From an uncultured Rhodospirillales bacterium (GTDB taxonomy: Bacteria > Pseudomonadota > Alphaproteobacteria > Azospirillales > Azospirillaceae), in contig CAIXKV010000218.1 in the NCBI GenBank assembly GCA_903920145.1, positions 1-58,125 of the forward strand: DNA of 58,125 bases, given 5' to 3'. Numbering within the stretch: the first letter of the stretch is position 1; the number at the start of each line of letters is the position of its first letter. This document shows positions 144-24,454 of the stretch, in pieces. Both the position numbers and the translations under genes were made by a program. The notes beneath the pieces are model-generated. The model did no database searches, was not told the DNA's origin, and saw only the letters and a program-made list of their open reading frames with translations.

Positions 144-1190
<1,047 letters not shown>

Positions 1191-1245: not shown

Positions 1246-1567
1246 GGAACATTCACTCTGACGAACCGCAAGGCCCAGTCTTTGACCCAGAAACGGCAAG
1301 TCCTGGGCTTATTACCAAAATGTACAAAATCCAGCCGAAAGGGACCTCCCGGAACAAATCCGCGATGGCGTCTCCCAACCGTTGGTCGATCTTCCCACTG
1401 AGCGGCACTGGCGCGCGGCTTGCTTTGTCCCCGGTTGAAATAAATCGGAGACCTATCATGACGCCGGATCGATTCATCGGGAAGCTGCCATGAAGCCCGC
1501 ACTTTCGAACGCAGCCGCCGGGCTTCAGATCGTCGGTTTACCAGCGTGTTGGAAACGCCGATCCGGG

Positions 1568-2079: not shown

Positions 2080-2907
2080 TCACTCCTGCCTGAGAAATCG
2101 GCCGCGTATCCAGGCACCGAGGAAATCGATGGCTGTGACCAGCCCGAGCAGGACGATGATCAGCGCCAGCGCCTCGCGGTATTCGAACAGATGAAAGGCC
2201 GTGATGATTTCCAGCCCGAGGCCGCCGGCGCCAACCACACCGAGAACGGTCGCGGCTCGGACATTGTGCTCCCAGCGATAGAGCGTGACATCGACCAGCC
2301 GTGGCAAAATTTGCGGCACGACGCTGAAACGCAGCACGCCCAATCGTGAGACGCCCTGGCTGCGCAGAGCGTCGCCAGGGCCGGGATCGACGTGTTCCAG
2401 AATCTCGGCGTAGAACTTGCCGAGCATGCCGGTGGAATGGCAAGCCAGCGCGAACACGCCTGGAAGTGGTCCGAAGCCGACTGCGGCCACGAAAATCACC
2501 CCCCAGACCAGCCCAGGGATCGATCTCACTGTGTTGAGCAACAGCCTGATCGGCGCGCCACACCAAGTCGGTCCGATGGTGCGTGCCGCCAGAATGCCCA
2601 GCGGCAAGGCGGCCATGCAGGCCAGCACGGTTCCGGCAATGCTCATAGCCAGGGTTTCCAGCAACGGACGGCCCCAGAGTTGCCAGCGGCTGAAGTCAGG
2701 CGGAAACGAGTCCGCAGCCAGGGTCAAAATCGTCGACACGGCACCGCGATAGCGCTCCAGATCGAAGGCATTGGCATAGGCGAAGGCACCCGCGATCACC
2801 AGCACCAGCACGACTGTAGTCGCGACACCACTCAGTACACGGCGGCGGCCGTCGTCCAGGACGGCCGCCAGTTCCGCGTCCTTCGATGTGGTTGGGATGG
2901 CGGTCAC
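2080..2907 (-). CDS. phnE: PhnE-type ABC transporter permease
   Basis: A 275-residue inner-membrane permease of the phosphonate/phosphite type. It has an N-terminal membrane segment near residues 22-45 and a BPD-transport block with further helices from about 80. The cytoplasmic EAA-like loop around residues 190-215 (DALRSQGVSRLGVLRFSVVP) contacts the ATPase. Its start overlaps the phnD stop by 4 bases, showing translational coupling. It should form the membrane channel with PhnC and PhnD encoded just upstream. The substrate cannot be read from sequence: phosphonate, phosphite or phosphate are the known family substrates, and vanadate is an inference from the nearby vanadium nitrogenase. Confidence 0.92.
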   Translation of the reverse strand: MTAIPTTSKDAELAAVLDDGRRRVLSGVATTVVLVLVIAGAFAYANAFDLERYRGAVSTILTLAADSFPPDFSRWQLWGRPLLETLAMSIAGTVLACMAALPLGILAARTIGPTWCGAPIRLLLNTVRSIPGLVWGVIFVAAVGFGPLPGVFALACHSTGMLGKFYAEILEHVDPGPGDALRSQGVSRLGVLRFSVVPQILPRLVDVTLYRWEHNVRAATVLGVVGAGGLGLEIITAFHLFEYREALALIIVLLGLVTAIDFLGAWIRGRFLRQE

Positions 2908-3791
2908 GGTGCTGGAACTGCATCCGGGTTAGCGCGGCCGATCGCCTCGATCCAGCTGCGGACTGGATCGGCATCGGCATCGACGCAGGGAATAAACGCT
3001 TCGGCGCGGAACACCTTGAGTGCCTCGGGATCGGTGACGTGGAGAAAGGCTTCACGGACTTCCTCTTTGAACGTCGGATCGAGGCCATCGCGGAAGACCC
3101 ACATGTATTCGGGGATCGGGGGCGAAGACGCCAGCACTCGCACCGAGTTGGCGTCGATCTTGCCCTCCTTGAGCAAGCGGTTGTAGATCGGCAGGGACAG
3201 GCCGCCCGCAGCGACCTTATGATTGGAAACTGCCAGTGCGACCGCATCGTGGGCGCCCAGTACCCGCAAGGTGTAATCACGCCCCGAGACCAGACCGGCT
3301 TCGAGCAACTGGTAGCGCGGAACCCAGGTGCCCGAAGTCGAGGCAGGGTCGCCGAACGCCACCTCACCCCCCTTGAGATCGCCCAGGGTCTTGGCTGGGC
3401 TGTCGGCGGGAACGATGACTACCGCCTGGAAGGTCGGCCCCGTCCCCTGGTGTGAAGGCCGGGCGAAGGGTTCTAATTTAGCACTTCGCGAACGCAGGAT
3501 ATAGGTTACCGGCCCCAGATAGGCGATGTCGAGCCGCCCGAAGCGCAACGCCTCGCCAGTGGCGGCGTAGTTGGCGCCTACCACCAGTTCCACCGGCAGG
3601 CCCAGCCGCCGCTCCAAATAGGCCCGCAACGGCTCGTTCAGCCGCATAACTGTCGGGGCGGATTCCCCAGGCAGCAGCCCGACCACCAGTTTCGACGGGC
3701 GGGTCTGGGCCGCCGCCTGGGAGAGCGGAAGCAACAGGCCGCCCGCCAGCAAGGCTACGGCCAGAACCAGTGGTTTCCAGTGACGGCGCAT
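2904..3791 (-). CDS. phnD: PhnD-type oxyanion-binding periplasmic protein
   Basis: A 295-residue solute-binding protein of the phosphate/phosphite/phosphonate family. A signal peptide covers about residues 1-29 and ends SQAAAQ. Family motifs are visible: the FGRLDIAYLGP strand near residues 107-117 and the binding-loop GDPASTSGTWVPR near 161-173, where backbone and Ser/Thr hydroxyls normally grip a tetrahedral oxyanion. It sits between phnC (14-base gap) and phnE (4-base overlap). Because it lies inside an alternative-nitrogenase region, vanadate, a phosphate analogue, is a possible ligand, but this is inference. Phosphonate or phosphite are the default family readings. Confidence 0.92.
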   Translation of the reverse strand: MRRHWKPLVLAVALLAGGLLLPLSQAAAQTRPSKLVVGLLPGESAPTVMRLNEPLRAYLERRLGLPVELVVGANYAATGEALRFGRLDIAYLGPVTYILRSRSAKLEPFARPSHQGTGPTFQAVVIVPADSPAKTLGDLKGGEVAFGDPASTSGTWVPRYQLLEAGLVSGRDYTLRVLGAHDAVALAVSNHKVAAGGLSLPIYNRLLKEGKIDANSVRVLASSPPIPEYMWVFRDGLDPTFKEEVREAFLHVTDPEALKVFRAEAFIPCVDADADPVRSWIEAIGRANPDAVPAP

Positions 3792-3805
3792 GGGATTTCC
3801 TTTCT

Positions 3806-4597
3806 TCAGGGAGAGACGGGGCCTTGCCCATCCAGGGGAGCATGGGATGGAAAAATGCGGTTCTCGGCGGCGGCGTCGAAGGCGGCGGCGGGACCGTCGA
3901 AGGCAACCCGGCCGTCGGCGAGGCCGACGATGCGGTCGGCCAGAGTCCGGGCCATCTGAAGCTGATGCAGCACCAGAATTACAGTGAGGCCGCCGCGCGC
4001 GACCAGGCGACGGAACTCCTCGGCCAGTCGCCGAGCCAGTGCCGGGTCTACCGAGGCAAAGGGTTCATCGCCCAGCAGCAGGCGTGGACACCGCACCAAG
4101 GCGCGAGCGATACCGACCCGTTGGCGTTCCCCGCCCGAAAGCCGATCGATGCGGGTGGTGGCTCGGCCCAACAAACCCACCTCGTCTAGTGCCCGCGCCG
4201 CCCGTTCGCGCAGGGCGCGAGGCCAGGGCAAAGGCGACAGCGGATGGCGGCTGTCGGCCAGTCCGAGCAGCACATTGTCGAGCGCCGACAGGCGGTCGAT
4301 CAAGGCGTGGTTCTGGAAAACGGTGGCGGTGCGCCGACGCGCCTCGCGCAATGTCCCGGCTTCGTCGAGACGTCCGATGCCGGCCATTGAAATAGCTCCA
4401 TCCGAGGGTCGCAGCAAGCCGTTCAGGGCCCCCATCAGCGTGGTCTTGCCGACCCCTGACGGACCGACCACGGCGGTAATGCTGTCTTCGGCGAACGACA
4501 GCGACAGTTCGTGCAGAACGGTTCGGTTACCACGCCGTACGGTCAGGCGCTCCACCGTGACGGTGGCAAGTTGGGGGGATGTAACGGAAAACGGCAT
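3806..4597 (-). CDS. phnC: PhnC-type ABC transporter ATP-binding protein
   Basis: A 263-residue ABC ATPase energising the PhnDE system. Walker A is GPSGVGKTT near residues 45-53, the signature LSGGERQRVGIARAL near 154-168, Walker B LLLGDEPFASVDP near 173-185, and the H-loop histidine follows in VLHQLQM. The start ATG at 4597 has GGAGG 8 bases upstream. First gene of the phnCDE-GNAT operon. Its upstream region (4598-5082) holds no recognisable sigma-54 promoter, so unlike its neighbours this operon is probably not directly under the nitrogenase activators. Confidence 0.93.
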   Translation of the reverse strand: MPFSVTSPQLATVTVERLTVRRGNRTVLHELSLSFAEDSITAVVGPSGVGKTTLMGALNGLLRPSDGAISMAGIGRLDEAGTLREARRRTATVFQNHALIDRLSALDNVLLGLADSRHPLSPLPWPRALRERAARALDEVGLLGRATTRIDRLSGGERQRVGIARALVRCPRLLLGDEPFASVDPALARRLAEEFRRLVARGGLTVILVLHQLQMARTLADRIVGLADGRVAFDGPAAAFDAAAENRIFPSHAPLDGQGPVSP

Positions 4598-4831: not shown

Positions 4832-4910
4832 TTGGGTCGTACCTGTTGTTACTATGTTATCAGCCCATGATCGGGCATAGAGCGACGCACCGTTTCCGTG
4901 ACATAATGTA

Positions 4911-5082: not shown

Positions 5083-6375
5083 CTATCTGTCTCGTTCTGA
5101 ATCCCCCTGATCTGAAAGGCGGGTCCGTGATTGGTGTATAAAGCGTCCGAACCGCCCGAACTCCCGAGGCAAAGCTCCGGCACGGATCGCCGACGCCAGA
5201 CCAGCGGGGTTGTCGACCACCAGGCCGCCCAGCACCTCAATACCGTATTCGTACAGCCTGGACGTCATCGGTGTGGTCGGTCCGATCAGGGCGACGCGGC
5301 GATTGCGGGCGAGCCGAAGAATGCGCGGTAAACTGCGGTTGATCAGCGCCGACGCATTGATGATTGCGGCACCGCACCTGGGTAGCAGGGTGTCCATAGC
5401 CATAGTGGGAAACTCGCCCGGCTGTGGGTCAGTCTCGATCACGGCGCGATTAGGCAGGATCTCGTCGACACCAGGGAAGGCGCCTATCACAACCACCCGC
5501 CCCGCGACCTTGCGAAAGACTTTGACGCCGTTGCCAGGATACCCCTCAAGGTCGAAGCGGTTGTAGTGGGCGTTGATTGCGGCGATGCCCAGTGCCATCT
5601 CCAGCGGATCCCAGGAACGCGACAGCCCAGCCAGACTGCGCAGACTCTGGCCAACATAGCTCGGCAGGCGGGGCAGTAGGCGGCGCGGATGCTGCGGCAG
5701 GTAGGCCAGCCCAGCGCCGAACGGCCCTTCGACCATGATCCAGCGCAGGCCGCAGGCGATCTGGCGAACCTCGTGTTCGGCAACGCCCAGGGTCAAGTCG
5801 CGATACAGCCGCTCCGGCCCCCACCAGGACCACAACGACGCGAGGTCGGGCGAGATCATTGCGCCGTCCTGGCGGGCATAGCTGTGCCATTTATGGATGC
5901 ACTGTCCAGCAATCGAGGTCAGCAGTGGCATGCCCTGGGAAACGTCGGTGCCGATCGGCGCCTTGAGGCTTTCGGTGGCCTCAAGGCAGGCGGCGAAGCG
6001 GCTGATCACGAGCAGGTCGGCATCCTCGCGCGTGGCTTGGCGCAAGTAGCGAGTGGCCGCGTCCTGCTCGACCGAAAGGGTGGCGGAGGTGCTGAGGTCG
6101 AAATACTCGATGCGTGGGGCGCAGCCCTGGCCTTTCTCGGCGCAGCCGCGGTTGTTGCGCTGGACATAGCCGGTAACGTGGAAGCCCCGGCCGCGCAGGC
6201 CCAAGGCGAATTCCGCCAGCAGGCCGTCGATGCGCTCGATTGGGTCATGGACCACCACTCCGGGCCGGACCCATGGCGCCTGCATCGGCTCGAAGGTGCC
6301 GATCGTGTCGTGCCCCCTCGTGACGGCGCGGTCCCGGTCCGCTTCACATCTTCGCTTTGTGCCGATCATGGCCAT
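5083..6375 (-). CDS. DUF2478-DUF364 fusion, candidate metal-handling protein
   Basis: A 430-residue two-domain protein. The first part (about residues 30-165) resembles DUF2478, a nucleotide-binding-like domain often encoded near molybdenum genes, with GLLAEFALGLRGRGF and an acidic/Cys segment. The second part (about 180-420) resembles DUF364, a Rossmann-like putative heavy-metal chelation domain, with VVVIGAFPGVDE and NASALINRSLPRILRLA. The start is uncertain: ATG 6375 lies 7 bases after the small upstream gene; ATG 6285 and 6438 are alternatives. A sigma-54 promoter at 6559-6573 and a shared GTAC dyad link it to the divergent operon at 6771. Its role in V, Mo or Fe handling is inferred from context only. 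Confidence 0.8.
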   Translation of the reverse strand: MAMIGTKRRCEADRDRAVTRGHDTIGTFEPMQAPWVRPGVVVHDPIERIDGLLAEFALGLRGRGFHVTGYVQRNNRGCAEKGQGCAPRIEYFDLSTSATLSVEQDAATRYLRQATREDADLLVISRFAACLEATESLKAPIGTDVSQGMPLLTSIAGQCIHKWHSYARQDGAMISPDLASLWSWWGPERLYRDLTLGVAEHEVRQIACGLRWIMVEGPFGAGLAYLPQHPRRLLPRLPSYVGQSLRSLAGLSRSWDPLEMALGIAAINAHYNRFDLEGYPGNGVKVFRKVAGRVVVIGAFPGVDEILPNRAVIETDPQPGEFPTMAMDTLLPRCGAAIINASALINRSLPRILRLARNRRVALIGPTTPMTSRLYEYGIEVLGGLVVDNPAGLASAIRAGALPREFGRFGRFIHQSRTRLSDQGDSERDR

Positions 6376-6382
6376 CCTGTGG

Positions 6383-6520
6383 TCAAGGGCAGATCGAACG
6401 GGCCAGCCCGCACCAGGCTGGCTCGCTCTTTTGTTCATAATCGCGGAAGGCTTGAGCGAGTCCGATCAGCACTTCCGCCGAGGTTTCAAAGAGCGCTTTG
6501 AACTGAGGATCATCGTTCAT
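6383..6520 (-). CDS. small hypothetical protein, 45 aa
   Basis: A short reading frame of 45 residues starting MNDDPQFKALFETSAEVL, amphipathic helical in its first 30 residues. It lies between the minus-strand sigma-54 promoter (6559-6573) and the DUF2478-DUF364 gene, ending 7 bases before that gene's likely start. The upstream sequence has GGAG and GGGG stretches that are not ideally spaced. It may be a real leader or small protein, or the true N-terminal part if a frameshift is present. No family recognised. Confidence 0.45.
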   Translation of the reverse strand: MNDDPQFKALFETSAEVLIGLAQAFRDYEQKSEPAWCGLARSICP

Positions 6521-6558
6521 CGTCGCCCCGTCTCTCCGTCCCCGATGGTCACAACGAA

Positions 6559-6573
6559 GCAAACCATGGGCCA
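6559..6573 (-). promoter_or_regulatory. sigma-54 promoter toward the DUF2478-DUF364 gene
   Basis: On the minus strand this reads TGGCCC-N5-TTGC, with the invariant GG-N10-GC. It faces away from the promoter at 6704-6718, with the GTAC dyad (6648-6661) between them. Confidence 0.7.
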
Positions 6574-6647
6574 AACCTCCTGATCCGGAAATCCAGCTAG
6601 GCTGGGGATCCTGATCGCACAGTCACGAACATCGCCCTTGGACGTTC

Positions 6648-6661
6648 GTACATTGCTGTAC
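6648..6661. promoter_or_regulatory. VnfA-like activator dyad GTAC-N6-GTAC
   Basis: A perfect GTAC-ATTGCT-GTAC dyad (flanked C/G to CGTAC..GTACG). It lies 42 bases upstream of the plus-strand sigma-54 element and 74 bases from the minus-strand one. The layout matches the GTAC-N6-GTAC-type site described for the Azotobacter vanadium nitrogenase activator VnfA, as I recall it. The regulator itself is not in the window. Confidence 0.65.
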
Positions 6662-6703
6662 GATTCTAGCGCCGAGACCCGGCCATCATGCCTTTTTCAC
6701 AGT

Positions 6704-6718
6704 TGGCTCGGCTTTTGC
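6704..6718 (+). promoter_or_regulatory. sigma-54 promoter of the five-gene operon
   Basis: TGGCTC-N5-TTGC with correct GG-N10-GC spacing, 52 bases before the ATP-grasp start codon. Confidence 0.8.
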
Positions 6719-6770
6719 TAGGTGGCCTGGGCCGATCGTCGGCGGAGCGTCACCGAGGAGGACAGCCACG

Positions 6771-7808
6771 ATGGTTTCGCCAGTCGTATCAGACCTGCTG
6801 ATCCGCCCGCCCAAGACCTCGACAACGCGGATCCTGTTCATCGCCCGCCATGCCCCCCAGGAGCCGAACTACGCATGCCGCAGCTATCCCGGTGACGGTG
6901 GCTATCCGGCCTATTACCACCGGGTCTGGCAGGTTCTAACCGACCTGGGCTATCGCGTGCGCACGGCTAACCACTGTTTGGCTTTGTTGGCTGCGCCCGG
7001 CCATGTGGATCTGGTGTTCTCGCTTTATAACCGCATACCCATCGACCATCCCGAAATCTTCGTGGCTTCGACCTGCGCGTTCCTGGGTCTGCCCAACGTC
7101 GGCGCCGGTCCCAACATCCGCGCCCTGGCCGAGGACAAGTGGCTGTCCAAGCTGGCGGCCAGAGCGGTGGGCATCCCGGTGGCCGAGGGCGCGATCTACT
7201 GCTCGGCCGAGGAACTGGCGGTGCCGCCGCCCTTCGTCGGTCCCTATTTCGTTAAGAACCGCTTCGGCGCCGCCTCGGAAGGGATCAGCGTTGAGTCGAT
7301 TCAGGACGACTGGGCCGGAGCCGCCGCCGTCGCTCGGGCCCTGCTGGAGCGCGGCCTTGCGGTGCTGGTCGAAGCCTACATTCCTGGCATCGACCTCACG
7401 GTGCCGATGCTCGGCGGTCGACAGCCGATCATGCTGGGAGTGGTCCGGCCGCGCTCCGACCAGATTGGCGGCATCATCACCGAGCACCTCAAACGCGACG
7501 ACCCACTGGGCTACGAACTGTTCCGGGACGATGCCGCCGAAACCGCCATGAGGGCCGACGTGACCGCTCTTTGGGTTGCGCTCGGCCCCATGGACTATGC
7601 CCGCCTCGACTATCGCTTCGATCCCAGGAGCGGCCGGCGGGTGTTTCTGGAGTTCAACATTTGCTGCCACATCGGCCGCAGCGGCGCCATCTGCCTGGCC
7701 GCCGGCCAATGGGGGCTGGATCAGGCCGACCTGCTCGGCCACGTGGTCGAATACTGCCTCAGCCGTCAATCAACCACCATCCGGGAGCCCCGCGCATGGG
7801 TGTCATGA
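6771..7808 (+). CDS. ATP-grasp enzyme, D-Ala-D-Ala-ligase-like
   Basis: A 345-residue cytoplasmic protein with the ATP-grasp layout. An N-terminal part (residues 1-110) is followed by the ATP-binding lid region (EDKWLSKLAARAVGIPV, then PYFVKNRFGAASEGI near 155-170) and a Mg-binding segment (MDYARLDYRFDP then FLEFN near 272-297). Such enzymes ligate a carboxylate to an amine through an acyl phosphate. An unusual CRSYPGDGGYPAYYHRVW block near residue 37 may form the substrate site. The start has GAGGAGG 8 bases upstream. First gene of an operon under a sigma-54 promoter and a VnfA-like dyad. The substrate is unknown; it is not expected to be a cell-wall ligase, as it stands apart from division genes. 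Confidence 0.82.
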   Translation: MVSPVVSDLLIRPPKTSTTRILFIARHAPQEPNYACRSYPGDGGYPAYYHRVWQVLTDLGYRVRTANHCLALLAAPGHVDLVFSLYNRIPIDHPEIFVASTCAFLGLPNVGAGPNIRALAEDKWLSKLAARAVGIPVAEGAIYCSAEELAVPPPFVGPYFVKNRFGAASEGISVESIQDDWAGAAAVARALLERGLAVLVEAYIPGIDLTVPMLGGRQPIMLGVVRPRSDQIGGIITEHLKRDDPLGYELFRDDAAETAMRADVTALWVALGPMDYARLDYRFDPRSGRRVFLEFNICCHIGRSGAICLAAGQWGLDQADLLGHVVEYCLSRQSTTIREPRAWVS

Positions 7809-8884
7809 CCGCCGGAGCGCGGATCGTCCTCGACGTCACCCCGCCGGTCGGGTCTGCAAACCGACCGTTCGGCGACGCTGCCGTGCCGCGCGGTACGCCC
7901 CAGGGATGGGATTTGCTCGGTACCGTTCCGGTGCCGTTGCGTCATCGGGTTCGCGACGGCGTCGCCGATCTCGTGGCGCGCTACCGGGCCGAGGGCGGTT
8001 CGGCACTGAAATGCTGTTTTCCTATGGGCCAGGGCGGCCGCACGCCGTTCGATCGGCTTCGCTTCATCCGTGCGCTCGACGACTATCCCAACATGTTGGT
8101 CTCGTCCGAACACGGCAACGCCTTCAATCACCGATTCTACGCCCGCCATGTGGCCGATGGCGCCTTCGTCGGCAGCCAGCCCGCCGGCGTCGTCGCCGCT
8201 TTCGCCGAGGCTGGTCTGGTCGACCCCGAGGACCGCATCGGGGTGTTCGCGGTGGCGCCGTTCGTGCTGCTGATCGACCATGGCCGCCTGAACGGTCTGC
8301 CGCCCCCGCGCCGCTGGGCCGACCTCATGGACCCGCGTTATCGCGATCAGGTGGTGTTCAGCGGCTGGCGCCGGGATGGCGAGCGCCGTCACCGCCAGGT
8401 CAATCTGTTTTTCCTGCTGTCGATGGCGCGGGCGTTCGGCCTGGCCGGACTGGCGCGGCTGCTCGACAACGTCCCGGCCTTGCTGCATTCGGCCCAGATG
8501 CCGCGGCTGGCCGGTACCGACGCTTCGCCGGGTGGCATCTATGTGCTGCCGTGGTCCCTGGCCGCTCTCTGCCCCCGCCGCGTCGACACCGAGGTGGTAT
8601 GGCCCGAAGACGGGGCGTTGGCCTATCCGCTGTGGCTGACGGTCAAGACAGCCCATCGCGAGCGCCTCAACGTCCTGGTTCGCCACTTTCATGGCGCCGA
8701 CCTGGGACGCGTCCTCAATGACAACCGCTACCCGGCCTTGTGTCCCGATCTGACGCCTGCGCTGCCCGCCGGTGCCCGGCTGAGTTGGTTGGGCTGGGAC
8801 TTCGTGCGTCACCCGACCACCGCGAGGCTGCTGCGGGCGATCCGCGAGATATTTGCCGACCAGGAGGACCGCCTATGCGCGTGA
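7796..8884 (+). CDS. substrate-binding-like protein without signal peptide
   Basis: A 362-residue protein resembling ABC transporter substrate-binding proteins of the iron/spermidine-type fold, but with no signal peptide, so probably cytoplasmic. Visible features are a KCCFPMGQGG loop near residue 76, with a Cys pair, SEHGNAFNHRF near 104 and PPRRWADLMDPRYRDQVVFSG near 170. The last is typical of the hinge region in which such proteins close on a ligand. ATG 7796 is chosen because GGGAG lies 8 bases upstream; ATG 7805 is an alternative overlapping the previous stop. It overlaps both neighbours. A cytoplasmic binding protein beside a GTPase and an ABC ATPase suggests metal or cofactor handling rather than import. 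Function unknown. Confidence 0.75.
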   Translation: MGVMTAGARIVLDVTPPVGSANRPFGDAAVPRGTPQGWDLLGTVPVPLRHRVRDGVADLVARYRAEGGSALKCCFPMGQGGRTPFDRLRFIRALDDYPNMLVSSEHGNAFNHRFYARHVADGAFVGSQPAGVVAAFAEAGLVDPEDRIGVFAVAPFVLLIDHGRLNGLPPPRRWADLMDPRYRDQVVFSGWRRDGERRHRQVNLFFLLSMARAFGLAGLARLLDNVPALLHSAQMPRLAGTDASPGGIYVLPWSLAALCPRRVDTEVVWPEDGALAYPLWLTVKTAHRERLNVLVRHFHGADLGRVLNDNRYPALCPDLTPALPAGARLSWLGWDFVRHPTTARLLRAIREIFADQEDRLCA

Positions 8885-9573
8885 TCACGGTCGCCGGGCC
8901 GCCCTCGGTGGGCAAGACCTCGGTCATCGTCAGGACCGTCAAGGCCCTGGCCACCCAGGGCCTTGACGTCGGCATCGTCAAGTTCGACGCCCTGTCGACC
9001 TCGGATGATCAGGTCTATCGGCGTGCCGGGCTGCCGGTGGTGGTCGGCCTTTCGGGCAGCGTCTGTCCCGACCATTTCTTCGTCAGCAACATCGACGACT
9101 GCCTGGGTTGGGGCCAACAGGCGGGACTCGACATACTGATCGCCGAGAGCGCCGGCCTGTGCAACCGCTGCTCGCCGCACATCCAGGGGGTTCTGGCGGT
9201 CTGTGTCGTCGACATGCTCTCGGGTATCCATACCCCGCGCAAGATTGGCCCGATGCTGAAACTGGCCGACTTGGCCGTGGTCACCAAAGGCGACATCGTC
9301 TCTCAGGCCGAACGCGAGGTCTTCGCCTTCAATGTCCGCCTGGCCAATCCCCGCGCCATAATCCTGTTCTTCAACGGCATCACAGGCCAGGGCGCTGCCG
9401 AACTCGCCTTTCACTTGCGTCAGGCGCCGCCGGTGGAGACTCTGGATGGCCGGCGCCTGCGCTTTCCCATGCCGTCCTCGGTCTGCCCCTATTGCATCGG
9501 CGAAACCGTGATCGGTCGCGACCATCAGCGCGGCAACGTGCGCAAGATGAGCTTTGAAAGTGCATCGGCATGA
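8875..9573 (+). CDS. Cys-rich SIMIBI/G3E-type GTPase (HypB/CobW-like)
   Basis: A 232-residue P-loop GTPase. Walker A GPPSVGKT is at residues 8-15, a switch Asp lies near 38 (VKFDAL), and TKGD at 137-140 serves as the guanine-specificity motif. Cysteine motifs are prominent: CPDHFF at 64, CNRCSPH at 96-102 and CPYC at 204-207. Together they could hold a metal or Fe-S cluster. The family is related to HypB, UreG and CobW, which load metals into enzymes, but this clade differs from all three and I know no characterised member. AGGAGG precedes the start, which overlaps the previous gene by 10 bases. In this operon a role in metallocofactor delivery for the vanadium nitrogenase is plausible but unproven. 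Confidence 0.82.
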   Translation: MRVITVAGPPSVGKTSVIVRTVKALATQGLDVGIVKFDALSTSDDQVYRRAGLPVVVGLSGSVCPDHFFVSNIDDCLGWGQQAGLDILIAESAGLCNRCSPHIQGVLAVCVVDMLSGIHTPRKIGPMLKLADLAVVTKGDIVSQAEREVFAFNVRLANPRAIILFFNGITGQGAAELAFHLRQAPPVETLDGRRLRFPMPSSVCPYCIGETVIGRDHQRGNVRKMSFESASA

Positions 9574-10598
9574 GGGATCGGATGCTGTCGCTGACCCTCG
9601 CCGAGTTGGCCGGCTGGCACCCGGCGATCACCGAGTTCCTGATCTCGGCCGATGCTGCCGGGGCCAAGCCGGCCCGGACCCTGGACGCCTGGCTGCGGGC
9701 GCTGACCGATGACCGTCTGTCCGACATCGGCATGGATCGTGATCAGGTGCTGGACCATCTTGAAGCCTTGGCGCATCAGGTCGAGACGCTGCGCGGCACG
9801 TCCGAACAGTCGGTGCGGTCCCTGACCGTTCTCGGCGGACACGACAAGAGTGATCGCCCGGAAGTGCTGACCCTGACCCTCCAGGTCGGCGACGTGCTGT
9901 GCATCGTCGGCCCCACCGGTTCGGGCAAGAGCCGTCTTCTGGCCGACATCGAATGCCTGGCCCAGGGCGACACCCCGACCGGCCGCCGGGTTCTGGTCAA
10001 TGACGCACCGCCCGATCCCGGCTGGCGCTTCGCCTCTGGCCGTAAGCTGATCGCACAACTGTCCCAGAACATGAATTTTGTGGTCGACCTGACGGTCGGC
10101 GAGTTCGTGGCCATGCATGCCGATTGCCGCATGGCGCCTAACCGTGACGCCGTGGTGCGCGAAGTCATCGCCTGCGCCAATGACCTCGCCGGCGAGAGCT
10201 TCGCTGTCGGGGTGTCGCTAACCCAGTTGAGCGGCGGCCAGACCCGGGCGTTGATGATCGCCGACACCGCGCTCCTGTCGGCGTCGCCGGTAGTGCTGAT
10301 CGACGAGATCGAAAACGCAGGCATCGACCGCAAGAAAGCACTGGCGTTGCTGATCGCCCAAGAAAAGATCGTGCTGATCTCGACCCACGACCCGGTGTTG
10401 GCCTTGCTGGGCAGCCGACGCATTGTGCTCCGCAACGGTGCCGTCGCAGAGATCATCGAGACTGGGGCGGACGAGAAGGCCAATTTGGCCATCCTGGAAC
10501 GGATCGACCGTAGCCTGATGGAGGTGCGTCATCGCCTGCGCTGCGGTCAGCGTATTGATGTCCCCCTGGCATGGCCGCCGACCCTGGATAATGAGTGA
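9570..10598 (+). CDS. ABC-type ATPase with extra N-terminal domain
   Basis: A 342-residue ATPase. Residues 1-80 form a helical domain resembling DUF1858-like or hybrid-cluster-associated domains (LAELAGWHPAITEFLISADA). The ABC part follows, with Walker A GPTGSGKS at 114-121, signature LSGGQ at 220-224, Walker B VVLIDEIENAGID at 241-253 and H-loop H273. No permease is encoded nearby, so it may be a soluble ABC ATPase working with the GTPase and binding protein rather than a transporter. The start overlaps the GTPase stop (ATGA); ATG 9582, with GAGG upstream, is an alternative. Function unknown. Confidence 0.8.
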   Translation: MRDRMLSLTLAELAGWHPAITEFLISADAAGAKPARTLDAWLRALTDDRLSDIGMDRDQVLDHLEALAHQVETLRGTSEQSVRSLTVLGGHDKSDRPEVLTLTLQVGDVLCIVGPTGSGKSRLLADIECLAQGDTPTGRRVLVNDAPPDPGWRFASGRKLIAQLSQNMNFVVDLTVGEFVAMHADCRMAPNRDAVVREVIACANDLAGESFAVGVSLTQLSGGQTRALMIADTALLSASPVVLIDEIENAGIDRKKALALLIAQEKIVLISTHDPVLALLGSRRIVLRNGAVAEIIETGADEKANLAILERIDRSLMEVRHRLRCGQRIDVPLAWPPTLDNE

Positions 10599-11154
10599 GC
10601 ACATGGACGCCATAACGTTGCTGCTGGAGCGGCGATCCTGCGCCGCGCTGCAAGCACCCGCCCCGGAGGGCGAGGCATTGACTGTCATCTTGCAGGCGGC
10701 CTTGCGGGTTCCTGACTTTCAACGGCTGCGCCCATACCATTTTATCTTGGCTTCAGGAGACGGCCTTGATCGTTTGGGTGCGTTGATGGCGCGCGCCGCC
10801 GTCGCGACCGACCGGTCGCCCGAGGAGATCGAACGCGCCCGCCGCATGCCTCATCGCGCCCCACTGGTGATCGTGGTCGTCTCCCGCTATCGCCCAAGCC
10901 TCATCGTCAGTCGGTTCGAACAGCATCTGAGCGCCGGGTGCGCAGTGATGGCCATGCAGATGGCGGCGGTAGCGCAAGGGTTCGGCGGCATCTGGCGATC
11001 AGGATGGCTGATGTTTGATCGCGGTCTGCACACGGCTCTCCATCTTGAACAAGACGATCACATAATTGGCTTTCTCTATCTCGGCACGCCAACCCTTGCT
11101 CCAAGCAAGCCGATCCCCACCGTCGACGTTAACAACTATGTCCGCTGGCTTTAA
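10591..11154 (+). CDS. nitroreductase-family flavoprotein
   Basis: A 187-residue FMN-dependent oxidoreductase of the YdjA/nitroreductase type. The LERRSCAAL motif near residues 11-19 contacts the FMN phosphate. LRVPDFQRLRPYHFIL and the GCAVMAMQMAAVAQGFGGIWRSGW segment (near 112-135) form the dimer and flavin pocket. The start overlaps the end of the ABC ATPase gene; ATG 10603 is an alternative. Last gene of the operon. In this setting it could reduce a metal or cofactor intermediate, but the family accepts many substrates. Family assignment is firm, role is not. Confidence 0.87.
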   Translation: MSEHMDAITLLLERRSCAALQAPAPEGEALTVILQAALRVPDFQRLRPYHFILASGDGLDRLGALMARAAVATDRSPEEIERARRMPHRAPLVIVVVSRYRPSLIVSRFEQHLSAGCAVMAMQMAAVAQGFGGIWRSGWLMFDRGLHTALHLEQDDHIIGFLYLGTPTLAPSKPIPTVDVNNYVRWL

Positions 11155-14923: not shown

Positions 14924-15370
14924 TTACGGCGTGCCGGCGGCTGCTCGTCGTTTCTTGGCACGACAGTCCGGCGAGGCCATCCCGGCCTCGATCGCCTCGC
15001 AAGTGCCTTCAACCGGGACCGATGCCGAAATCGGGGCCAGCAGGTGGCTCAGGGCGTCGACATCGCTGGCGAACAGAAGTCTGGCCCGGATCTCCACCGA
15101 CCGGAAGATTTCCAGGACGGCGCGGCCGGTTTCGGTCAGAGCGGCGCCGCCGCCGCGACGGCCACCCATGACCCGGGTAACTAGCGGTTCCCGGAAATGA
15201 TGGTTCAGACTATCCACCAGCTTCCAGGCGTTGGGATAGGCAATTCCCAGGACGCGGGCCGCCGCCGAAATCGAGCCATGGCGGTCGATGGCCTCCAGAA
15301 TCTGTATCTTGCCGGGGCCGATGAGGGGGAGAATGCGCACCTGAATGCGAAGATCGGGGGTGTCCGCCAT
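14924..15370 (-). CDS. ModE-like transcriptional regulator, HTH domain only
   Basis: A 148-residue winged-helix regulator of the ModE N-terminal type. The helix-turn-helix region is ILEAIDRHGSISAAARVLGIAYPNAWKLVDSLN near residues 24-56, followed by the wing GGRRGGGAALTETGRAVLEIF near 71-91. Full-length ModE is about 260 residues with two molybdate-binding TOBE/Mop domains; these are absent, so the protein may not sense molybdate itself. It ends the vnf operon orientation, 66 bases after vnfX. ModE proteins repress alternative nitrogenases when Mo is present, which fits the position. Whether it binds DNA at vnf or at the phn operon is unknown. Confidence 0.85.
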   Translation of the reverse strand: MADTPDLRIQVRILPLIGPGKIQILEAIDRHGSISAAARVLGIAYPNAWKLVDSLNHHFREPLVTRVMGGRRGGGAALTETGRAVLEIFRSVEIRARLLFASDVDALSHLLAPISASVPVEGTCEAIEAGMASPDCRAKKRRAAAGTP

Positions 15371-16928: not shown

Positions 16929-20187
<3,259 letters not shown>

Positions 20188-20265: not shown

Positions 20266-20279
20266 GTTCCGTTCGGTAC
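20266..20279. promoter_or_regulatory. VnfA-like activator site, GTTC-N6-GTAC
   Basis: On the minus strand this reads GTAC-CGAACG-GAAC, which fits the GTAC-N6-GAAC form I recall for the Azotobacter VnfA site. It lies midway between the two sigma-54 promoters (79 and 74 bases away). A second partial dyad, GTAC-N6-GTGC, is at 20296-20309 and a lone GTAC at 20330. Confidence 0.65.
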
Positions 20280-20352
20280 GATCGCGCGGGCAAGAGTACC
20301 GATTGGTGCGCCGTCGGAAGCCACAGGCGGTACTTTAGCGGGAAAGGTGCTT

Positions 20353-20367
20353 TGGCACGGCCGTTGC
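20353..20367 (+). promoter_or_regulatory. sigma-54 promoter of the NifX-glyoxalase gene
   Basis: TGGCAC-GGCCG-TTGC, an exact consensus match, 35 bases before the start codon at 20403. Confidence 0.9.
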
Positions 20368-20402
20368 CTTTGGTCATCCGGCTTCATACTCCGGAGAGCG
20401 CC

Positions 20403-21209
20403 ATGGACGACCTTTCCTTCGACCCCCACCCCCCCACTGCCGTGACGGTGGCGACGCCGCTGCGGATCGCCGTCGCGAGCCAGGACGGCAGCCGAGTTGA
20501 TCAGCATTTCGGTCAAACCGAAGCGTTCCTGGTGTTCGATGTCACCGCCGCTGGTGCAGTCGCGATCGGGACTCGGGCCATTGCCGATCACGCCGTGGGC
20601 GACGAGAACCCGCGCGACACCGTCTGCCGTATGCTGGCCGATTGCACGGTGCTGCTGGTCTCCAAGATCGGCATCTCGCCCCAGGAAAAGCTGGCCGGCG
20701 TCGGCATTGAGGCCAGCGACCGGCATGCCGGAGAGTCAGTCGAAGCGGCGCTGGCCGCCGTGTTCGCCGCCAAAGCGGTTCGCCACGACAACACTCCGCT
20801 TGACGCCATCGGCTTTCGCTTGCGCCACGCCATGCTGCGGGTTGCAGACCTCGACCGATCGTTGGACTTCTATACCCGCCAATTGGGCATGCGGGTGCTG
20901 GAGCGCCGCGACCACAAGAGGAACCAGTTTTCCCAAGCCTATCTCGGTTACGGCGATGATTTCGGCGAGATGGCGCTGGAGCTGGTGGCCAACTGGACGC
21001 GCGACCAGCCTTACGCCGTGGGCGAGTCCTTCGGCCACATCGCCATTGAGGTGTTCGGCATCACCGCACTGTGCGACCGGCTGGCCGCCGCTGGCATCCC
21101 GATGCCGCGTCCGCCCCGTGCCCAACGCCACGGCGAAAACATTGTCGCCTTCATCGAAGACCCCGACGGCCACCGCATCGAACTGCTGCAACTGCCGAGC
21201 GGCGCGTAG
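20403..21209 (+). CDS. NifX-glyoxalase I fusion protein
   Basis: A 268-residue fusion. Residues 19-128 are a NifX/NifB-C-type cofactor-binding domain (IAVASQDGSRVDQHFGQTE, with H35 in the position used by relatives to bind the cluster, and VLLVSKIGISPQEKL). Residues 139-265 are a glyoxalase I (VOC fold) domain. The four metal ligands of GloA are all present: H142, E193, H212 and E260, spaced as in E. coli GloA (about 51, 19 and 48 residues). The start has GGAGAG upstream and a consensus sigma-54 promoter. Divergent from vnfD. Both domains look intact, so it may carry a FeV-co precursor and also bind a metal; methylglyoxal detoxification is the default family role. Confidence 0.9.
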   Translation: MDDLSFDPHPPTAVTVATPLRIAVASQDGSRVDQHFGQTEAFLVFDVTAAGAVAIGTRAIADHAVGDENPRDTVCRMLADCTVLLVSKIGISPQEKLAGVGIEASDRHAGESVEAALAAVFAAKAVRHDNTPLDAIGFRLRHAMLRVADLDRSLDFYTRQLGMRVLERRDHKRNQFSQAYLGYGDDFGEMALELVANWTRDQPYAVGESFGHIAIEVFGITALCDRLAAAGIPMPRPPRAQRHGENIVAFIEDPDGHRIELLQLPSGA

Positions 21210-21611: not shown

Positions 21612-23777
21612 TTACGGCCGATGCCGGGCCGGGCAGGCCGTGAAGGTATCAACATGTGAGGTGAAGTTGGTGCAGTGGGTAAAATCGGCATCGATCCGGA
21701 AGCGCTCCAGGGCTTTTCGGTCATTGTCGGAAAAGGCGTCCGCCGGTTTCGAGGATAGGGGAGGAATTGGTGCCAAGACCATCAGCGGCCCTCGGTGAGT
21801 CGCGAAGTCCTGATCGGCTATTGCCCCCAGGCCTACGCCTGGGGTCAGGGCGATGTTGCCGGTCAGGCGAACAAAGCGGTCGGTTGGTGGAAAAAAGGGA
21901 ACGATGTAACTCTCAGCCCAGCCGTTCACCATCACGAACAGGGTGTCAGGGGCATCCAGGCCGGCGGGGACCGACAGGCCGAACCAGCTTTTTCCGTAAG
22001 GGATGTGTCCCCAATCGCTCGGCCGAGTCCACGCCACCGAAAGCACGGCGCATAGCGTCAGCATCACCACACGCGATCGGTAGTTACGGAAAATTGCCAG
22101 AATAGCAACGCCCAGCACCAGCCCGCCGATTAACTCAAGGCTGACCAGATAACGCTGATACGCGAAGACCGCCATCCATAGCGCATAACCGATCAGAAAA
22201 AATGCCAGCAAAAACAGGCGTGCACGGCCCTCGGGACGGGTTGGCAAACGCTTTCCCAACCGGGCGATCATCCGAACCGCAACACCAACTGCGGCAACGG
22301 CCAAGGCAGCCGTGATCAACAGGAATCGGGGGTCGCGGAACGGCCCTTCTGAGGTTGAGCGGGTGACACAAAACCAATTCTGGTCAAAGACCTGCAAACA
22401 ATGCTGCGTGCTGTCATAGAACCCATAATCAAAAGTCCAAAGAACCAGTATCGAAAAAATCTCTCCAAGCGATTTTGGAATAAAGGTAATCGCCGAAAAA
22501 GCCTCTTGCAGATAGAATGGAGATTTAAACCAGTCATTAAAATAGGGAAAAAATGGACTGTGGTACTGTTGCCAGAGCAGATAAGCGGGATAACCGTCGC
22601 CGATCAAGAAGCCGAGCAGAAAGCCAAGAGTGCCGGCCGGCGCCAAGGTCAGCAAGGTCACGCGCAGCCGCCGGCACATCATGAAGCCGACGGCCAAGCC
22701 GGGGAGGAACAGAATGTGGGTGAGCTTCAGTCCGACCGCGAGGCCGACCAAAAGCCCGACCCCCAGAATCATCATCGGCAGTCGGCGATCCCGATCATCG
22801 ATCTCGAGGCTGCGGAGCGCTAGCGCCAAGCCGGCGAGCAACGGTAGGCAGGCCGTGTTGTCGACGAAGGTGGTGCCGACCTCGGATAGAAAGGTGGCAG
22901 AAGTGAAGCCGATGACGGTTGCGGGCAAGGTCAGGGCGTGTCGGCGCGCTCTGGAATACCCAGCAAACAACTGCCAGCCGATCAAGTAAACAAGGATAAA
23001 ATTGAGCGAAGCCAAAGCGCCCATCGTCGCGCCCGCAAGACTCGGCGGAAGATTAGCAATTGCTAAGTAGTATGGGATATGGGGAAACGGGTTCGACCAT
23101 GTTTGGACTTGACCCGGAGCAATATCCAAATGACTGCGGTCATAGAGCAGGGCGTAGGGAGCATAGATGTGATAATTCTTCTGATCCCAATTGACATCCT
23201 GGCCCTGGACCACGGCCCATCCAACCGCCGCAATCATGCCCGCGACGGCAATCACCGCCAGTTCGCGGACGGACAGTCCGCCGACACCTCGGTAGACCCA
23301 CGCGAGCATTCGGCCCAGTCCCAACACCACCACCAGCGCCGAGGCCCCCAACAGGGCCTCTGAGCACATTCGGATTGGATAGCGAGCGCGATATTGGTGG
23401 CCGTTGCTGCGCGGATCACTGTTGTCGGACGCCGAAAAACCCAGAGAACGGGTCGCGCCCCTGTTTAGGCACTGGAAAGAATAGGCACCGCCGCCGGTCT
23501 TGCGGATACTGTCATCAACGCTGTGGGCCGGACCAAGCGGTCGCCCGTCCTCGAATAGTGCCAATTCCGCGTGCAATGCCCCACGAGAGGCACCGGCAAT
23601 ATCGTCACATCCGGTGACGAACAGGCCCAACCGGGTTAGCATCGTGCCTACCCGATAATCGAAAAAAGCATGGTCGCCGTCCACCACCTCAGTTGGATCG
23701 AGCGTGTATTCTACCACCAGTAGGCCGGCACGGGAGGCAACGCCCAGGCTTATCACGAGGCCAGCAGCAAGGACCAC
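21612..23777 (-). CDS. polytopic membrane protein, GT-C glycosyltransferase-like
   Basis: A large membrane protein with about 12 predicted helices, of the GT-C/DUF2029 kind by layout. A first helix (VVLAAGLVISLGVASRAG) is followed by a luminal loop, then repeated helix pairs and an NWDQKNYHIYAPYALLYDRS segment typical of the first luminal loop of such enzymes. The start is unclear: the reading frame continues upstream to 24257 through DNA that is a TnpB remnant and a repeat. I place the conserved part from GTG 23777; no good ribosome site is visible. If translation starts at ATG 23936, the protein begins with transposase-derived residues. GC content falls around 22400-22560. Confidence 0.65.
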   Translation of the reverse strand: MVLAAGLVISLGVASRAGLLVVEYTLDPTEVVDGDHAFFDYRVGTMLTRLGLFVTGCDDIAGASRGALHAELALFEDGRPLGPAHSVDDSIRKTGGGAYSFQCLNRGATRSLGFSASDNSDPRSNGHQYRARYPIRMCSEALLGASALVVVLGLGRMLAWVYRGVGGLSVRELAVIAVAGMIAAVGWAVVQGQDVNWDQKNYHIYAPYALLYDRSHLDIAPGQVQTWSNPFPHIPYYLAIANLPPSLAGATMGALASLNFILVYLIGWQLFAGYSRARRHALTLPATVIGFTSATFLSEVGTTFVDNTACLPLLAGLALALRSLEIDDRDRRLPMMILGVGLLVGLAVGLKLTHILFLPGLAVGFMMCRRLRVTLLTLAPAGTLGFLLGFLIGDGYPAYLLWQQYHSPFFPYFNDWFKSPFYLQEAFSAITFIPKSLGEIFSILVLWTFDYGFYDSTQHCLQVFDQNWFCVTRSTSEGPFRDPRFLLITAALAVAAVGVAVRMIARLGKRLPTRPEGRARLFLLAFFLIGYALWMAVFAYQRYLVSLELIGGLVLGVAILAIFRNYRSRVVMLTLCAVLSVAWTRPSDWGHIPYGKSWFGLSVPAGLDAPDTLFVMVNGWAESYIVPFFPPTDRFVRLTGNIALTPGVGLGAIADQDFATHRGPLMVLAPIPPLSSKPADAFSDNDRKALERFRIDADFTHCTNFTSHVDTFTACPARHRP

Positions 23778-23827
23778 GCCCCACAGCAGCCACGCCCACA
23801 GCCGGGCGGATGATAAGGACGCCCCTC

Positions 23828-23880
23828 TGATACCGGCGAGCCCTGATACTGACACATCGCCGGATGTCTGACTGGTATCA
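23828..23880. repeat. H2 palindrome inside the tnpB remnant, copy 5
   Basis: H2 core (ATACCGGCGAG..ATCGCCGG) with an outer TGATACC/GGTATCA pair. On the minus strand it begins right after the TSQT codons of the tnpB remnant, where the zinc-finger CxxC should follow. Confidence 0.8.
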
Positions 23881-24454
23881 GCAGCGTTGACTTCGACCAA
23901 TCGACCCCCTCGATCCGCCAGCTTATACGCCAGCATCGTCTTGAATGCCGACCATCCCTGATCCAGGATAGCGCGATTCAAACCGGACTTCTGCCGCACC
24001 ATCCGCCCTGGTTCTTCCGCCGTTCCTCTGGCAGACGCCGACATGTTCCTGACTTTCAGTGCCTCCACAACGACCACGCCCATGTCAATGCCGATCGCAG
24101 GTAATGCCGATAGACTTGGTTCTGCGACCTCGCGTTCACACGGGACGGCAGCGAACCCCTGACCGGCTCGGCGCGACACCGCGATGGTGCAGATATCGCC
24201 CGGTCCAGATCGCGGAGCGCCTGCTGTAGCGCATAGACTGGCGCCGCTTTGAGCCACTCCACTTCAGCCCGCAATGCGGTGGCCTCGCGGCACTGGCTTG
24301 CGAAGCTGAATTTCCGGCCAGGGCGATACCAATCCCGACGCTGTTCCAGCGCCAGAGTGTACACGAAGCGGCACGCGCCCGCGATCTGCGCCATCTGAGC
24401 GTACTGCTCGGGCGACGGATACAGGCGGAACATTGCGGCCTTGCGTTCGATCAT
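23866..24454 (-). pseudogene. TnpB (IS200/IS605) remnant
   Basis: The start MIERKAAMFRLYPSPEQ at 24454 is TnpB N-terminal, running to about 24190. A second piece, in another frame, reads IGIDMGV joined directly to VVVEALKVRNMSASARGT. It continues through MVRQKSGLNRAILDQGW to NAADTSQT. The first keeps the RuvC-I Asp and the second the RuvC-II Glu, with the central part lost, and the zinc finger is cut by the H2 repeat. Inactive: frameshifted and internally deleted. Confidence 0.85.

Follow-up and report, generated by a model that had tools for sequence, protein, structure and literature searches.

A divergent sigma-54 promoter region with a putative tandem VnfA site beside vanadium nitrogenase genes of an uncultured alphaproteobacterium

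Can a single VnfA-type activator serve two operons that point away from each other out of one short intergenic region near the vanadium nitrogenase genes? This question is raised by positions 6559-6718 of the stretch analyzed here (58,125 nucleotides from an uncultured Rhodospirillales bacterium, referred to as the window), where the original prediction had described two correctly spaced -24/-12 elements diverging around one perfect dyad. Promoters, spacing, and perfect dyad were confirmed; a second dyad at 6617-6630, which turns the site into a tandem pair, had been missed. The region comprises the following elements:

6558..6573, minus strand: left sigma-54 promoter (-24/-12), firing left, TGGCCCATGGTTTGCT, core TGGCCCATGGTTTGC at 6573-6559, predicted start at about 6547
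6617..6630, plus strand: distal imperfect putative VnfA dyad GCAC-AGTCAC-GAAC, 31 bp from the perfect dyad
6648..6661, plus strand: proximal perfect putative VnfA dyad GTAC-N6-GTAC, GTACATTGCTGTAC, between the two promoters
6704..6719, plus strand: right sigma-54 promoter, firing right, TGGCTCGGCTTTTGCT, core TGGCTCGGCTTTTGC at 6704-6718, predicted start at about 6730

In both promoters, GG and GC lie 10 bases apart within a TGGC-N7-TTGC context. Transcripts of sigma-54 promoters start about 12 bases past the GC, and the predicted starts lie 91 bp (right) and 92 bp (left) from the center of the tandem (6639). The distal dyad is without any GTAC half-site. The perfect dyad had been compared to the Azotobacter VnfA site, and this comparison holds, as PMC7294313 gives the VnfA site of A. 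vinelandii as GTAC-N6-GTAC; PMC9542535 reports a ChIP-seq motif for VnfA of GT(T/A)C-N6-GTAC, mostly occurring twice per promoter. The genes on either side are:

5083..6438, minus strand: DUF2478 and DUF4213/DUF364 ('putative heavy-metal chelation') gene, left operon
6383..6520, minus strand: 45-aa ORF, the first frame that follows the left promoter, with relatives in two other loci, L089 (74%) and L197 (70%)
6771..7808, plus strand: ATP-grasp ligase gene (D-Ala-D-Ala-ligase-like), heading the right operon
7796..8884, plus strand: SBP_bac_6 solute-binding-type protein without evident signal peptide
8875..9573, plus strand: CobW/HypB/UreG-type GTPase, orthologue of the Avin_02420 gene
9570..10598, plus strand: ABC-type ATPase with no adjoining permease gene
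10591..11154, plus strand: nitroreductase-family gene

All frames of the right operon overlap or abut. Regarding the 45-aa ORF, the frames of its relatives in L089 and L197 extend further upstream, and none was found in the other loci searched.

Nitrogenase genes, together with two further regions carrying sigma-54 promoters and VnfA-type dyads, are found elsewhere in the window:

144..1052, minus strand: nitrogenase iron protein, above the TIGR01287 cut-off and taken as vnfH
1132..1147, minus strand: vnfH sigma-54 promoter, TGGCACGAGGTTTGCT
1312..1355, minus strand: VnfA-type tandem preceding vnfH, GTTCCGGGAGGTCC ... GTACATTTTGGTAA, ranking third in the window
16929..18335, minus strand: vnfK, above the TIGR02932 cut-off
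18332..18673, minus strand: vnfG, above the TIGR02930 cut-off
18670..20088, minus strand: vnfD, TIGR01860, 977 bits against a cut-off of 823
20172..20187, minus strand: vnfDGK sigma-54 promoter, TGGCATGGTTAGTGCT, core at 20187-20173
20266..20279, minus strand: putative VnfA dyad GTTC-N6-GTAC in the region between vnfD and nifX-glx, minus-strand sequence GTACCGAACGGAAC, imperfect
20296..20309, minus strand: partner dyad GTAC-N6-GTGC at a distance of 30 bp, minus-strand sequence GCACCAATCGGTAC, imperfect
20353..20368, plus strand: sigma-54 promoter of the NifX-like/glyoxalase fusion gene, TGGCACGGCCGTTGCC, core 20353-20367, near-consensus
20403..21209, plus strand: NifX/NifB-C-like and glyoxalase fusion gene, divergent from vnfD

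The layout was thus correctly expected to recur at 20.17-20.37 kb as divergent promoters with tandem dyads in between, but neither dyad is perfect there. The fusion gene is divergent from vnfD in many alphaproteobacterial loci. Other features of the window include, inside the vnf region, a DNA-binding domain of ModE type that lacks the molybdate-binding portion (14924-15370, minus strand), and a long frame (21612-24257, minus strand) that has a TnpB-like match over residues 60-131 and probably represents mobile-element remains. Genes for a PhnD-like binding protein and a PhnC-like ATPase (2904-4597, minus strand) are linked to vnf genes in many loci and are a candidate vanadate uptake system; no clear VnfA tandem or sigma-54 promoter was found for them in the window. 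A one-mismatch dyad upstream of these genes (4839-4852) was rejected, with no sigma-54 promoter between dyad and gene.

Taken alone, neither type of element is strikingly enriched in the window, as would be expected from a chance meeting of sigma-54-like and GTAC-rich strings: the single dyad matches nine times at no more than one mismatch (6.25 expected, not significant), and TGGC-N8-TGC occurs 22 times (14.2 expected), a count matched by two of 100 shuffles. Their arrangement, however, refutes such a meeting. Divergent sigma-54-like pairs 60-250 bp apart occur exactly twice in the window, at both reported sites; random windows contained a mean of 0.40 such pairs, with at least two in 15 of 300, and in none of the 300 did such a pair flank a dyad of one mismatch or fewer. 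Along with the invariant-column footprint and the matrix ranks one and two described below, this makes the probability of mere coincidence negligible. The tandem pattern GNAC-N6-GNAC-N15..17-GNAC-N6-GNAC was found at two places in the genome, again both reported sites (reversed control: one). At least one match arises by chance in 124 of 372 genomes of the class, so the two hits alone are no proof. Per-genome tandem counts were also rejected as a vnf marker: with matches in 46 of 50 vnf genomes, separation was not clean, given random hits in a third of the class.

In the genome as a whole (4.26 Mb in 269 contigs, 99% complete), six perfect dyads were found, so the motif is infrequent; sigma-54 promoters flank two of them, the one at 6648-6661 and one between vnfA and vnfE. 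The remaining perfect dyads, on contigs C166, C174, C188, and C206, were discarded, as no sigma-54 promoter lies within 300 bp. The genome search for a vnfA gene that had been suggested as a check returned one on contig C79:

L014 (contig C79), 718-2388: VnfA-type activator with GAF (PF13185/PF01590), sigma-54 AAA+ (PF00158), and Fis-type HTH (PF02954) domains

Control by a VnfA-type activator, as originally proposed, is supported at the sequence level by this gene and by the genome-wide rarity of the dyad. Facing away from the activator gene is a NifE/NifN-like pair, which we take to be vnfEN, and the intergenic region between vnfA and vnfE contains another perfect dyad with a sigma-54-type promoter on each side. 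This site surfaced through a loose pattern (GTAC followed by TGGC-N7-TTGC at 100-130 bp) that returns mostly noise. The vnfA gene itself appears to have a sigma-54-type promoter, TGGCCTGGAAATTGC (L014 2366-2352), below a GTAC dyad (region L014:2340-2487), which suggests that vnfA may be autoregulated. Several relatives carry dyads 89-92 bases before the vnfA frame. The dyad on C79, GTACATTTTGGTAC, is nearly identical to GTACATTTTGGTAA upstream of vnfH.

The consensus of AnfA sites, TAC-N6-GTA, is contained within GTAC-N6-GTAC (PMC7294313), and the dyad could accordingly be of the AnfA type, placing the region in an iron-only nitrogenase regulon. The C79 protein shares 62-70% identity with anf-locus activators and likewise with many vnf-locus ones, and the HCFTGEC cysteines in its N-terminal GAF region are alike in vnf- and anf-locus homologues, hence non-discriminating. 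However, the genome encodes one Mo-type NifD and one VnfD, and AnfD was not found in this 99% complete assembly, by which an assignment to AnfA is mostly refuted. In a tree of 34 proteins, the C79 activator furthermore grouped with vnf-locus activators, paired with that of L019 and far from the NifA of its own genome; the anf-locus activators formed a separate clade (support 100/100) that did not include it. With its gene adjoining vnfEN, and with the neighboring vnfH and vnfDGK exceeding curated cut-offs, we consider AnfA-type control highly improbable. NifA, as the driver of the promoters at 6559-6718, is to be considered as well, since a NifA-type activator is encoded in the genome (L002) and sigma-54 promoters are common to both activators. 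Yet no NifA site (TGT-N10-ACA) is present in 6535-6770, and the sole one in the window, at 1230, lies upstream of vnfH, which renders this alternative extremely improbable. That NifA-type site is located between the vnfH tandem and the vnfH promoter; vnfH may respond to both VnfA and NifA.

We complemented these searches by a matrix independent of the window. Homology searches yielded 80 VnfD-like loci, including that of A. vinelandii (L042), and the matrix was trained on 24 unique tandem sites from beta-, gamma-, and deltaproteobacterial vnfD and vnfH promoters, with no alphaproteobacteria. Its top three matches in the 58-kb window were 6617-6661 (29.6 bits), 20266-20309 (23.5 bits), and 1312-1355 (20.5 bits). 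Maxima of 200 random windows had a mean of 12.4 and reached 21.0 bits at most, so on score alone the vnfH site lies in a range that chance can reach. Upstream of vnfD, 25 of 33 alphaproteobacterial loci, all outside the training set, scored at least 14 bits, against none of 330 shuffles and none of 17 non-proteobacterial loci; groups were sorted by record title (L031 and L087 by kinship), and one non-proteobacterial entry, L098 (55% identity), is probably an AnfD locus. AnfD loci proved a poor control for AnfA sites, the promoter there preceding anfH and not anfD. Accessory-operon promoters, likewise outside the training set, reached this threshold in 12 of 24 alphaproteobacterial regions and in 13 of 16 from other proteobacteria. 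Regions below 14 bits comprise the other 12 alphaproteobacterial accessory regions, all examined Rhodoblastus among them, and eight of the 33 alphaproteobacterial vnfD regions; some of these may use single dyads or other sites. In the Rhodoblastus accessory regions (L206, L207, L209, and L233), the operon is present without a recognizable tandem, and VnfA genes are found in three related loci (L023, L028, and L029).

Eight alphaproteobacterial orthologous regions, picked from the 24 because the elements were already visible in them, were aligned, and 30 of 32 invariant columns fell into the four elements (60 of the 236 positions). The -24/-12 bases of both promoters are invariant in these selected orthologues, and the distal dyad retains invariant G.AC/G..C columns. 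The right start lies 90-93 bp from the tandem center in 10 of 10 alphaproteobacterial accessory promoters with both elements, and the start of the gene divergent from vnfD lies at 88.5-93.5 bp in 16 of 23; this set was filtered at 14 for the tandem and 19 for the promoter, its members share distances by descent, and two of them (L063 and L064) are labeled beta/gamma and are alphaproteobacterial by name. Other distances tend to lie about one helical turn apart; over 27 distances from related species, none repeated within a promoter class, R was 0.59 at 10.5 bp, with P 1.5e-4 under a uniform null. As the species are related and share distances by descent, helical periodicity of the dyad-to-start distances is only suggestive.

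Conservation also bears on the possibility that the dyads bind VnfA and the leftward promoter is silent, making this a one-way region. The left gene does vary by lineage (a DUF364 gene, a small protein, or a transporter gene), and in several loci no left promoter was seen. Nevertheless, the left -24/-12 bases belong to the invariant positions of the eight selected orthologues, and PMC9542535 reports VnfA1 dependence for both promoters of the Azotobacter counterpart, so that a one-way region appears unlikely.

The elements themselves, their conservation, their rarity, their linkage to vnf genes, and the presence of vnfA are read directly from the DNA. Judged on these, 6558-6719 is very probably a shared divergent enhancer-promoter region with a tandem VnfA site. 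From this we infer VnfA binding, looping, a metal response, and transcription at 6558-6719. VnfA encoded on contig C79 would bind both dyads, whose distance of 31 bp corresponds to three helical turns, probably as cooperating dimers, and would loop to sigma-54 RNA polymerase at either -24/-12 promoter, which it would open by ATP hydrolysis. Since the two predicted starts lie about 91 and 92 bp away from the tandem center, one enhancer could serve both from the same helix face. The leftward output would comprise the 45-aa ORF and the DUF2478/DUF364 gene, and the rightward output the operon for the ATP-grasp, solute-binding-type, GTPase, ABC-ATPase, and nitroreductase proteins. The same activator would also serve vnfDGK/nifX-glx at 20.2 kb, vnfH, and vnfA/vnfEN.

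Regarding the function of the rightward operon, a hydrophobic leader is present in the PhnD-like protein of the window but missing from the solute-binding-type protein, and a permease gene is absent from the operon; both speak against a plain transporter. A phmmer search with the solute-binding-type protein returned no solved relative, and its structural model (pLDDT 76) bears a loose likeness to ferric-binding proteins (TM about 0.5). For the model of the ATP-grasp protein, the top ten Foldseek matches among structures were all D-Ala-D-Ala ligases (TM (query) 0.67-0.73). The protein keeps the E-x-N motif, with E294 and N296 invariant, which we take to be the metal-binding residues. It fails the curated D-Ala-D-Ala ligase models (52 bits against 243 for PRK01372 and 38.5 against 245.65 for TIGR01205), and no close relative was found among plasmid records.

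Whole-genome searches of 50 vnf genomes identified the GTPase in 37, the ATP-grasp gene in 22, and a glutamate-cysteine-ligase-type gene in 14. The two ligase genes never occurred together (0 of 50), and exactly one was present in 34 of the 37 genomes with the GTPase. These searches supersede a count of ligases beside the GTPase (37 loci: 19 ATP-grasp, 12 other, 0 both, 6 neither). The glutamate-cysteine-ligase-type gene is absent beside the operon of the window, where the locus was searched, as it is from all 22 vnf genomes with the ATP-grasp gene. Neither the GTPase nor either ligase was found in 11 of the 50 vnf genomes; the accessory operon is therefore not indispensable. By record title and kinship, genomes with the ATP-grasp gene are alphaproteobacterial and those with the glutamate-cysteine-ligase-type gene are not. 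The split follows descent and could therefore reflect lineage history instead of a functional exchange. In a sample of the class, relatives of the ATP-grasp protein above 45% identity were, among the matches listed, restricted to the genome studied here and G043 (385 genomes), and the same two were the only ones with VnfD (372 genomes).

For the right operon, we favor a cytoplasmic module for vanadium handling or insertion with an amide-forming ligase over a transporter. A more specific proposal, which we regard as possible and rather doubtful, is that the accessory operon needs an ATP-dependent amide-forming ligase, a slot filled by two unrelated enzymes (the glutamate-cysteine-ligase type in beta-, gamma-, and deltaproteobacteria and ATP-grasp in alphaproteobacteria), and that it would provide a cytoplasmic route making or using a peptide-like vanadium carrier for the FeV-cofactor, not a transporter. 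Its partners would be the nickel-inserter-type GTPase, the FbpA-like binding protein kept in the cytoplasm, the permease-less ABC ATPase, and the nitroreductase. Our literature search found no paper joining a vanadium nitrogenase gene cluster, or vnfD, with ATP-grasp, and PMC9542535 was the sole one found that links vanadium nitrogenase with glutamate-cysteine ligase, or with nitroreductase and GTPase. The ligase difference, i.e., an Azotobacter operon ending with a glutamate-cysteine-ligase-type gene and alphaproteobacteria carrying ATP-grasp, was not found in print.

The VnfA site code was worked out in Azotobacter, a gammaproteobacterium, and is here extended to alphaproteobacteria in the form of tandem dyads 29-31 bp apart with enhancer-to-start distances clustering near 91 bp; vnf regulons can therefore be listed from sequence. 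The analysis further draws attention to a little-studied helper operon that travels with vanadium nitrogenase, and the apparent exchange of ligases offers a clue to its chemistry.

The closest known counterpart is the Avin_02430/Avin_02450 region of A. vinelandii, for which PMC9542535 describes divergent sigma-54 promoters, both VnfA1-dependent, with a VnfA1 ChIP-seq peak between them. It further describes an operon of Avin_02430, 02420, 02410, and 02400, followed by 02390, annotated as glutamate-cysteine ligase, and states, citing Addo and Dos Santos 2020, that proteobacteria with V-nitrogenase conserve the operon except for its last gene. In the A. vinelandii counterpart DNA (L211), we found the same gene order and a tandem site. 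Both regions share divergent sigma-54 promoters around tandem GTAC-type dyads and, in the same order, orthologous genes for the solute-binding-type protein (41% identity to L211), GTPase (67%), ABC ATPase (58%), and nitroreductase (57%). They differ in that the operon of the window is headed by the ATP-grasp gene and has no glutamate-cysteine-ligase-type gene at its end, in that the left operon consists of the DUF2478/DUF364 gene after a 45-aa ORF where Azotobacter has Avin_02450 (78 aa), and in the dyad-to-start spacing (91/92 bp in the window and about 114-126 bp in Azotobacter). A second GTPase (61%) and ABC ATPase (59%), with a distant solute-binding-type protein (31%), are present in A. 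vinelandii at 41-53 kb of L230, and no VnfA-like tandem was found upstream of this paralogous module.

For A. vinelandii, GTAC-N6-GTAC sites have also been reported at vnfH and vnfD (Woodley et al. 1996, cited in PMC7294313 and PMC9542535), and at its vnfH promoter (L042) we identified GTACCATGCGGAAC and GTACCTGCGGGTAC 30 bp apart. These sites resemble that of the window in that two dyads in tandem, separated by 29-31 bp, precede a sigma-54 promoter, whereas the tandem of the window is predicted to serve two promoters at once. The AnfA sites of R. capsulatus anfH (TAC-N6-GTA; PMC7294313) are likewise paired N6 dyads upstream of an alternative-nitrogenase sigma-54 promoter; they differ in the outer G/C of the half-sites and in the genes controlled, the genome of the window being without AnfD. 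Both the site and the gene arrangement are thus of already known kinds, and the right half of the region is orthologous to a characterized region of Azotobacter.
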